Shown here piece after piece: positions 60,358 to 63,635 of a stretch of 64,000 bases of DNA. The stretch is from Methylotenera sp. (GTDB lineage Bacteria; Pseudomonadota; Gammaproteobacteria; Burkholderiales; Methylophilaceae): NCBI GenBank assembly GCA_030652995.1, contig JAUSAG010000032.1, positions 1 to 64,000 on the forward strand, read 5' to 3'. Each line of letters opens with the position of its first letter. The first letter of the stretch is position 1. The notes beneath the pieces are model-generated. The model had not been told where the DNA came from, did no database searches, and worked only from the letters and a program-made list of their open reading frames with translations. The position numbers and the translations under genes were made by a program.

Positions 60358-61290
60358 TTAGTAAAATTTGATAAGGGCAAGTAGCGATGCGATAAGCATC
60401 AAAAGATGTACGATTGCCCAATGACGATAACCGGCAACCAGCTCTTGAGGTGATTTTGCCGAAATTAAAAACAAGTGCGCATCTGCAGGTTTTGCCAAAG
60501 TGAAGCTACCTGTATGCGCTTTCGTTGCGTGCTTTGCATGAATGTGTTTTGAAACATCTTGGCGCGCAACCTCCCACTCATCCATATCAATCTGGCCGTT
60601 GCGGTTATGATCATAACGATTCAGCAGTTTTTGCGGGCTTAGCTTCAAATCGGCCAAGCTGGCACGTATGTCTTGATTAATGATATTTTTATCAAAATGA
60701 TCATGCCGCGTATCAAGCTGTCCCAGCACATAAATTGATCTACCGGCTGGCAAGTATTCTTCTACATAACGGTGCTCGTTTTTAAAAAAAGTACGTTGCT
60801 CGGCAAATATAATTTCCGCGCCCTTAGGGTCAACCATGCAAACACCTGTTTCGTCTCTCAACTGAAATAGATGATCACTTTCTACATATTCCAGCAGACG
60901 TCTATCAATAGGCTGTTTTGAGAAAGCGCTATCAGCACGGCTGGCGTATGCCCATGCGCGATACCAGACACAGGGGATACCATGATAAGGCGTCTTGAGG
61001 GGGGACGGAGTGGATGAAATGCCGTGTAACTCAATATAACCCTGCGCGGCAGCTGCAATAGTGGAGATCGGCGCCTCTGTGATTTTAAGTAATCGTGAAT
61101 AATTAAAAAACGCAGCTAAAGCACTCGCAAAAAAAGCCACGCCAAGCAAGAGTATCCATGTTCCTTTTTCTGCAAGATTGAGATGCAGCAGATAAGCTGC
61201 GTATAACATCCCCAATGGAACAGCCACACCGAGGAGATTCACGAGATACGTGTTGAAGTTTTTAAGCACTATGATGCAACTCACATACAA
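60358..61290 (-). CDS. GIDE-like membrane protein with an EF-hand, next to lemA
   Basis: A 310-aa protein with two N-terminal membrane helices (about 18-38 and 44-64), a middle domain resembling the GIDE (E3 ligase-like) family that often accompanies LemA (AAAAQGYIELHG, then HGIPCVWYRAWA), and a helix at the C-terminus (about 290-308). Residues 227-238 form a canonical EF-hand calcium loop: Asp227, Asn229, Asn231, Gly232, Gln233, Ile234 and Glu238 (DHNRNGQIDMDE). It lies 78 nt downstream of lemA on the same strand, so the two probably act together. Confidence 0.8.
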   Translation of the reverse strand: MYVSCIIVLKNFNTYLVNLLGVAVPLGMLYAAYLLHLNLAEKGTWILLLGVAFFASALAAFFNYSRLLKITEAPISTIAAAAQGYIELHGISSTPSPLKTPYHGIPCVWYRAWAYASRADSAFSKQPIDRRLLEYVESDHLFQLRDETGVCMVDPKGAEIIFAEQRTFFKNEHRYVEEYLPAGRSIYVLGQLDTRHDHFDKNIINQDIRASLADLKLSPQKLLNRYDHNRNGQIDMDEWEVARQDVSKHIHAKHATKAHTGSFTLAKPADAHLFLISAKSPQELVAGYRHWAIVHLLMLIASLLALIKFY

Positions 61291-61973: not shown

Positions 61974-63197
61974 TTAACGAGCACCTAGCAATATTGGCCC
62001 AACTTTTTCCCAATATCTAGAAAAACGTTTTAAGCGTTTATCGCTGATAGCTAAGCCTACCAATTTCACTTCTGGCTGCCATTTAGGCGCAAACGGTTCC
62101 AGCAATGCTTTGATCTTTTTATTGGGTGTATCTTGCGTGATCACTTGTCCCACGCCTCTATCCATCAACACCTCATAGGTATCACCCAGCCACACCTCTA
62201 CCCCATTCATTTCGCTTAAACAATCTGCTACAAACTGCAATCGATTAAGCGACCAATCTCCATAGAGCTGCGGGTCAAACACAAACATCTTGGGAAACGG
62301 CCTTTTCAACAAATCATGTGCGCCGGATAACATTTCATCATGCACATAAACAGCGATAGTTTTAAAGCTTGAGGGCACCGTCATCGGTAAAAGTTTTATT
62401 GGGTATTGTTTTGCAGTGGGTGTGAGTGTTTGATTAAACAAGCGCTCATTTAAAACTTCATAACTGTCATCAAACGGGCATGTTGCCTTGCAGTTTGCAC
62501 AATACCTTTCACCGGTATAGCGGCTTATATTCTCTTTGTTAAAGTAATAAGGTTTGGAGCTGAAGGTTGACGCCACCCACTGCCAAGACAGATGATTACT
62601 GGCAATATCACCATCCAATAAATGTTGCTCAAACCAATCGGCAGCAGCGCGCCAATCCATTTTTAAATGATGCACAATATAACTGGCAAGCCACATTCGC
62701 GCATGGTTATGCACATAGCCGGTAGCAAGCAAATCATTAATAAAAGCATCCATGCAAGGCAAACCTGTTTTGCCCTGCACAATGGCATCACTTAATGGCG
62801 CATAACCAATAGCAACTTTTGGCGGCTCGATCTCACTATAAATAGCATCGCCTTTTTCATACCAAACTTGCCGCCAATAGTCTCGCCAGGCAAGCTCGGT
62901 TAAGAGCTTTTGGGCCTCTAAACCAAAGCGATTTTTAATTGAAAAGAATGCTTCATTTAAGGTAACGCAGCCATGGCGTAAATACGGAGACAGGTGTGTA
63001 ACAGCACCATTAAGGAAATTTCGGTTTTTTGCGTAGGCAACAACATCAATGCTATTGAGTTTTTTTTGCGCACTCAAGCGCCCACCCACCCACTCCGGCT
63101 CCAAGCCAGCGCCTTGAGCGTTAACAAATATTCGCTTAATATAATGCAGTCGTTCAACACGATCACAAGGAATATGTAATCTTTGTGCAGGGCTCAT
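61974..63197 (-). CDS. Photolyase/cryptochrome-related flavoprotein with permuted domains
   Basis: A 407-aa protein. Residues about 1-255 match the FAD-binding helical domain of DNA photolyases: LSPYLRHGCVTLNEAF (69-84), ELAWRDYWRQVW (101-112), TGYVHNHARMWLASYI (159-174), LLDGDIASNHLSWQWVASTF (193-212) and PYYFNKENI. The usual N-terminal antenna Rossmann domain is absent; instead residues about 277-382 look like it (IAVYVHDEML, FPKMFVFDPQL, NRLQFVADCLSEM, EVWLGDTYEVL), placed after the catalytic domain. Cys233, Cys236 and Cys240 form a CxxCxxxC cluster between the two. It presumably binds FAD; the activity is unproven. Confidence 0.85.
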   Translation of the reverse strand: MSPAQRLHIPCDRVERLHYIKRIFVNAQGAGLEPEWVGGRLSAQKKLNSIDVVAYAKNRNFLNGAVTHLSPYLRHGCVTLNEAFFSIKNRFGLEAQKLLTELAWRDYWRQVWYEKGDAIYSEIEPPKVAIGYAPLSDAIVQGKTGLPCMDAFINDLLATGYVHNHARMWLASYIVHHLKMDWRAAADWFEQHLLDGDIASNHLSWQWVASTFSSKPYYFNKENISRYTGERYCANCKATCPFDDSYEVLNERLFNQTLTPTAKQYPIKLLPMTVPSSFKTIAVYVHDEMLSGAHDLLKRPFPKMFVFDPQLYGDWSLNRLQFVADCLSEMNGVEVWLGDTYEVLMDRGVGQVITQDTPNKKIKALLEPFAPKWQPEVKLVGLAISDKRLKRFSRYWEKVGPILLGAR

Positions 63198-63319: not shown

Positions 63320-63635
63320 TTAAGGGCACCTCTATTAATTCAAGTTACTAACCGTAAGTCAGTATTTGGCTTGTCCGTGGAATATACCCGCTAAAGCGGG
63401 TTATTCACACGCCAAAGGTCATCACCACCAATCTAAGTTGCTAAAGCGACAAGATTGGTGCGATAAGCTAGACAAGGCGCGAATAAAAAATTGTGTCGCA
63501 GCATATTGTTGATATGTAAGGAATAATTTTTTATGCGCAACGCAGTATCGCGACATACGACTTTTCAAGCACTTTAGTGCTTAGAAAATCGGAGTGCCTG
63601 TGGTACGGAAATTGAATTAATAGAGGTACCCTTAA
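63320..63635. mobile_element. Palindromic MITE-like element flanked by TTAA
   Basis: Terminal inverted repeats 63320-63343 (TTAAGGGCACCTCTATTAAT and on) and 63612-63635 match at 23 of 24 positions. TTAA lies at both outer ends and fits the YTAR target-site rule of IS5-type elements. Inside are further hairpins (ACCCGCTAAAGCGGGT near 63387; CACCAATCT with AGATTGGTG-type arms near 63425-63460; AGCACTTTAGTGCT near 63568). No gene is present. A non-autonomous mobile element is likely. Confidence 0.65.

Follow-up and report, generated by a model that had tools for sequence, protein, structure and literature searches.

A stretch of Methylotenera DNA (the window, 64,000 nucleotides in full) contains a gene for a photolyase-like protein whose FAD-binding domain comes first and whose second half resembles the domain that usually stands at the N terminus of photolyases. 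This arrangement raises three questions: whether the gene is genuine, whether the order is new and what the protein does. By sequence comparison, the 407-residue product is a FAD-first photolyase, real and conserved, and a Phr6-like member of this group in the Methylophilaceae. The features discussed below are as follows.

61974..63197, minus strand: gene for a FAD-first photolyase-like protein of 407 aa, from its ATG through the stop codon, with orthologues in the same genus
62424..63092, minus strand: FAD-binding photolyase domain, about residues 36–258 (PF03441 at 99–220; family FAD profile; whole-model Foldseek)
61986..62363, minus strand: C-terminal alpha/beta domain, about residues 279–404, a homologue of the domain that usually opens photolyases (profile and AlphaFold2 support; Pfam and domain-alone Foldseek weak or negative)
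62754..62756, minus strand: Cys148 codon, proposed cluster ligand, invariant in 50/50 fused sequences
62499..62501, minus strand: Cys233 codon, proposed cluster ligand, invariant in 50/50 fused sequences
62490..62492, minus strand: Cys236 codon, proposed cluster ligand, invariant in 50/50 fused sequences
62478..62480, minus strand: Cys240 codon, proposed cluster ligand, invariant in 50/50 fused sequences

The gene and its domain order

An earlier note on this DNA had placed the open reading frame correctly at 61974–63197 and gave no strand; the frame lies on the minus strand, and the plus strand is rich in stops there. Full-length orthologues were present in 19 of 25 genomes of the same genus, its own included, with the other 18 at 49–90% identity, so this is not a chance reading frame. 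A frameshift or annotation artefact is similarly disfavoured by the single open frame found at full length in these 19 genomes. In one genome (G020) the orthologue is reduced to short pieces with stops, and the remaining five (71–94% complete) had at most a distant photolyase and no orthologue. A wider search gave at least 595 candidate stretches, 559 of them confirmed; the best 80 of the 559, representing 79 distinct loci, were used here, and the best named relatives among them were from Methylotenera and other Methylophilaceae. One scan of viral contigs returned zero confirmed relatives, and we set aside a virus-borne origin.

In the window, LemA, a GIDE-domain protein and ValRS are encoded on the same strand as the photolyase gene; a further neighbour is a divergent partial ORF that is presumably NfeD-like and had no Pfam match. 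Among the 79 best loci, some of which are cut by contig ends, the partial ORF recurred at 50, valS at 44, LemA at 33 and GIDE at 31. The GIDE-domain membrane protein (window 60358–61290, with LemA and the photolyase gene upstream) contains the stretch DHNRNGQIDMDEW, which we take to be an EF-hand-like motif. Between the photolyase gene and the divergent ORF, at 63320–63635, we observed a 316-base stretch with 34-nt inverted repeats (85% complementary) and TTAA ends that looks like a small, MITE-like mobile element; the closest relative (L002, L031) has one of its arm motifs in the same position.

The FAD domain does come first, as the earlier note had said. Pfam FAD_binding_7 matched residues 99–220 (E 7.5e-30), and the fold matched photolyases: with the whole model, Foldseek returned Thermus thermophilus 2j07 (E 1.2e-9, 251 columns) and PhrB 5lfa (E 2.2e-7, 288 columns, TMq 0.50, about 18% identity). 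At E ≤ 10, Pfam reported just this model and a sub-threshold Zn_ribbon_11, with no DPRP domain (PF04244). Class-model and sequence matches indicated a FAD domain of the class I/DASH-like kind, with both class models failing their cut-offs (PRK10674, 82.6 bits against 506; DASH, 101.6 against 317), and the alpha/beta domain that precedes the FAD domain in class I CPD photolyases is absent from this position.

The same note had seen a segment resembling the usual N-terminal Rossmann domain in last place, and both profile matches and AlphaFold2 bore this out for residues 279–404, approximately. The model of the whole protein (50-row alignment) had a pLDDT of 95.0 and a pTM of 0.93, with strands and helices alternating over residues 280–404; the C-terminal domain modelled alone (33 rows) had values of 91.7 and 0.80. 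With hhalign, the 33-row C-terminal profile matched six conventional photolyase N-terminal domains (probability 96.8, E 2.8e-10), and the ValRS and rhodanese controls gave no match (0.3 and 0.2). A search of PDB sequences with the profile gave ten matches at E ≤ 1, every one to a photolyase or cryptochrome; the best had an E of 0.0029, and for eight of them E exceeded 0.05. Nine fell within residues 1–114, and the last was in a fusion construct. At E ≤ 0.001 the profile also reached the N-terminal part in 8 of 19 conventional photolyase rows, E. coli Phr not being among the eight.

One possible explanation for these matches is mere likeness, the C-terminal half being an unrelated alpha/beta domain of the nucleotide-binding type. 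Such a reading draws on Foldseek, which found zero matches at E ≤ 0.001 for the domain alone and ranked three class II photolyases at the top (E 0.041–0.060), followed by a mixture with phosphopantetheine adenylyltransferases. It also draws on Pfam, in which no model matched the C-terminal half of the window protein alone and PF00875 reached 12 of 33 family members (best E 0.0055), the window protein not among them. Despite this weak Foldseek result, we consider an unrelated fold highly improbable, as the profile matches point to photolyase N-terminal domains and the two controls were negative; homology of the C-terminal domain to the usual photolyase N-terminal domain is well supported by the profile comparisons. 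The profile aligned in the usual order within the alpha/beta domain, and we therefore prefer to describe the architecture as a domain-order swap instead of the circular permutation proposed earlier.

Cysteines, phylogeny and split relatives

Of the cysteine cluster first described at 233, 236 and 240, all three residues are present, but the conserved set numbers four and adds Cys148. All four were invariant in 50 of 50 fused sequences (the window protein and 49 of the 61 full-length fused loci). The metal binding that the earlier note had thought possible thus gains support from four conserved cysteines as a likely metal site, and a [4Fe-4S] cluster on them is likely. Across 84 FAD-domain rows (82 different), the set was complete in 43 and incomplete in 41. 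It was incomplete in every conventional (19/19), NewPHL-like (10/10) and 'other' (5/5) row, and among split rows in 2/2 gammaproteobacterial, 1/10 betaproteobacterial and 4/20 cyanobacterial ones. Because the FAD proteins of some split pairs (L111, L112, L178, L095, L096, L103 and L106) have no four-cysteine set, cluster and gene splitting are separable traits.

A tree of these 84 rows, 19 conventional and 65 FAD-first or split, divided the former from all of the latter with support of 100/100, its bootstrap unsettled and a long-branch warning attached to the 'other' and conventional rows. The window protein and Synechococcus Phr4 both fell inside the 65-row FAD-first clade (100/100), the base of which lacks resolution. 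Within it, the fused rows from Methylophilaceae (78/99) and from planctomycetes (96/100) grouped together, each on their own, and the ten NewPHL-like rows formed a separate clade (99/100) with the window protein outside; the named NewPHLs are not in the tree. Over the 65 rows, the fused or split state requires at least four changes and the cysteine set at least two. Five further FAD-first loci (L022, L023, L151, L168 and L169; frames of 399–478 aa) have no four-cysteine set and a different C-terminal part, and group at 100/98 on long branches.

The two domains were encoded in one ORF at 63 of the 79 best loci (two cut at a contig end) and in two ORFs at 14, with two loci too short to tell. The 14 split loci comprise three from Ferrovum, three from other betaproteobacteria/Burkholderiales, one from Bryobacteraceae and seven from cyanobacteria, including Synechococcus WH7803. 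We found that among 117 cyanobacterial genomes, strong FAD matches (E ≤ 6.3e-86, frames of 267–352 aa) and strong alpha/beta matches (E ≤ 1.8e-32, frames of 138–177 aa) occurred in the identical 22 genomes and nowhere else (Fisher p 2.9e-24, which ignores relatedness and is therefore overstated). The profile used for this search itself includes cyanobacterial rows. Strong and weak matches were widely separated in both searches; we left out, on the alpha/beta side, 11 weaker rows (E 2e-5 to 6e-4) whose frames of 482–574 aa have the length of conventional photolyases, and on the FAD side G255 (E 2.7e-52, NewPHL-like) and rows weaker than 1e-21. G271, among the 22, has a FAD row with a stop close to the end.

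In 12 of these 22 pairs the distance from the FAD stop to the alpha/beta start is -47 to 133 bases, and in three it is 827, 1623 and 1831 bases. The genes are unlinked in the other seven, lying at least 477 kb apart on one contig in four (G320, G280, G293 and G318) and on different contigs in three (G277, G301 and G330), at least tens of kilobases apart by position. Haney 2022 considered a heterodimer possible, and likewise a +1 frameshift (PMC9426592). As some pairs are unlinked, we favour the heterodimer, and frameshifting is disfavoured as a general explanation of the split halves. The junctions differ in frame and length, several having 4-base overlaps, as would suit separate translation of two proteins. 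In WH7803 an in-frame GTG comes directly after the TGA that ends the first ORF.

Outside the cyanobacteria, 7 of 250 Burkholderiales genomes had a strong alpha/beta match (E < 1e-25), and all seven had the FAD partner, fused in two and adjacent in five. Another 28 FAD rows, from 27 genomes (E 2.7e-67 to 4.4e-52), look NewPHL-like by the length of their frames, 348–1156 aa; nine of these 27 genomes entered the tree. In G527, outside these nine, the FAD frame is 348 aa long, and a different contig holds a weak alpha/beta row (E 3e-5) in a frame of 136 aa. The pair occurred together in 3/3 cases among 185 genomes of the host's class, a sample that shares the window's own genome and G147 with the order sample, and in 1/1 among 149 genomes of the planctomycete phylum.

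Such co-occurrence points to the halves being partners even as separate genes, in a two-subunit enzyme, and with the unlinked pairs it argues against 'short photolyase-like' proteins that simply lack the alpha/beta domain. On balance, we favour the view that FAD-first iron-sulphur photolyases are obligate two-part enzymes, in which the alpha/beta half is either fused C-terminally (Methylophilaceae and Planctomycetota) or encoded by a separate, sometimes unlinked, gene. If so, the 'short photolyases' of this group would each be one subunit of a split enzyme and not surviving one-domain ancestors, and if separate halves always act together, the proposed origin of photolyases and cryptochromes from an ancestor without the alpha/beta domain would lose the support of these proteins. 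We found no earlier report of the co-occurrence of the halves or of unlinked pairs in the open-licence literature, which is weak evidence of novelty.

Probable function

The most likely function is light-driven repair of UV photoproducts, probably cyclobutane pyrimidine dimers (CPDs), and we think it probable that the window protein is an inverted DNA photolyase of the following kind. We infer a mechanism in which the N-terminal domain binds FAD, and reduced FAD under blue or UV-A light would donate an electron to the UV photoproduct, most likely a CPD, in damaged DNA. A [4Fe-4S] cluster on Cys148, 233, 236 and 240 would stabilise the end of the FAD domain. The alpha/beta domain, presumably the usual photolyase N-terminal domain moved behind the FAD domain, would pack against the latter and either cover the flavin or hold an antenna pigment; in relatives it would be a separate subunit.

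Aligned to E. coli Phr, the window protein has kept W104, N164, M168, N201, W182 and W205, at positions that we take to bind CPD or FAD in the E. coli enzyme, and because these contact residues are kept we lean towards CPD repair. Other positions speak against it: E101, in the place of the CPD-contacting Glu, is E, Q or A among relatives, H165 stands where E. coli Phr has an Arg, and this alignment shows no counterpart of the third Trp in the electron chain. We counted towards the CPD reading the description of FAD-first relatives as ssDNA CPD photolyases (PMC13274461) and of SPLs as CPD enzymes. A biochemical assay of any enzyme in the four-cysteine FAD-first group was not found in the literature. 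A host-made 8-HDF antenna was set aside on finding no CofH match in the window's own genome, a search that used the CofH model alone; this model also gives matches below its cut-off in 8 of 14 controls. Besides the gene studied here, the window's own genome contains another photolyase-type ORF, 478 aa long.

Two other functions have to be weighed against CPD repair. Haney 2022 interpreted the cysteines as pointing to (6-4) repair (PMC9426592), and the window protein could, like Phr4/5/6 on that reading, be a (6-4) photolyase that uses an iron-sulphur cluster in the manner of FeS-BCP enzymes. The four-cysteine pattern is the same, and loss of phr4/phr5 in Synechococcus was harmful after UV-C and not after UV-B (PMC9426592). 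Moreover, the window's own genome may lack an FeS-BCP enzyme, since its sole match to the DPRP domain of these enzymes (L217, G000:C4:10861-11013) covers 51 residues of a 138-aa ORF and is apparently a decayed remnant. Against this stand the class I/DASH-like FAD domain without a DPRP domain, and N164 and M168, at positions that carry His in eukaryotic (6-4) enzymes. In addition, a Ferrovum cluster (L089, 389–5178) has four photolyase-type ORFs in a row, a conventional one, a DPRP gene, a FAD-first FAD gene and an alpha/beta gene, and so has a DPRP gene beside the FAD-first pair. We therefore regard (6-4) repair as unlikely.

The protein might instead have left repair altogether, to act as a cryptochrome-like light sensor or as a FAD/Fe-S protein with another role on nucleic acids. 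The phr4-phr5 region improved the survival of E. coli after UV-C to the same extent with and without light, and brought no gain after UV-B (PMC9426592). This result tells against a simple CPD reading; its independence of light, like the variable E101 and the missing third Trp, would suit such a role. Several DNA- and FAD-contact residues are nevertheless kept, and the split relatives adjoin other photolyase genes at some loci, which makes the loss of a repair function seem distinctly unlikely to us. Light-driven CPD repair remains the reading that we prefer.

Comparison with known systems

Contrary to what the earlier note had supposed, the architecture is not new, because Haney 2022 already describes a family with FAD-first order (PMC9426592), as does Emmerich 2020 (as cited in PMC13274461 and PMC9426592); the note itself had named such a precedent as a refutation. 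Class I CPD photolyases (E. coli Phr and T. thermophilus 2j07) resemble the window protein in the sequence and fold of the FAD domain and differ in their N-terminal alpha/beta domain and in having no cysteine cluster. The FeS-BCP (6-4) photolyase of A. tumefaciens (PhrB, 5lfa) shares the four-cysteine cluster and gave the longest alignment with the best query TM among the Foldseek matches listed (0.50 over 288 columns), but has the conventional order, a DPRP-type N-terminal domain and about 18% identity. SPLs (Xu 2021, as cited in PMC9178010, PMC9498864 and PMC9649867) likewise have a FAD domain and no N-terminal alpha/beta domain; they are described as lacking the alpha/beta domain, as CPD enzymes and, in one of these accounts, as Fe-S bearing, whereas here the alpha/beta domain is fused behind the FAD domain or separately encoded.

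NewPHL (Emmerich 2020) also has an inverted topology. The C-terminal domain of one NewPHL-like protein matched that of the window family (hhalign 95.3, E 2.1e-8), and our C-terminal profile recognised it in six NewPHL-like rows out of ten (E 5e-9 to 2e-5), so that Haney's 'Z-domain' and the window C-terminal domain look like one family. By contrast, these ten rows, among which there are no named NewPHL sequences, form a separate clade without the four-cysteine set.

The closest likeness is to two forms from Cyanobium and marine Synechococcus, the fused Phr6 and the split Phr4/Phr5 (Haney 2022, PMC9426592), which have the FAD domain first, the alpha/beta domain last and four cysteines. In RS9916 Phr4 these are C169, C254, C257 and C263 (PMC9426592), nearly the spacing of the window protein, in which the cysteine loop is shorter. 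The WH7803 locus (L102) was among the relatives that we recovered, and the window protein is 37% identical to the WH7803 pair. The differences lie in the gene neighbours and in the phyla: a reversed-order photolyase reported as a picocyanobacterial novelty (PMC9426592) now extends to methylotrophic betaproteobacteria, Planctomycetota and one acidobacterium.
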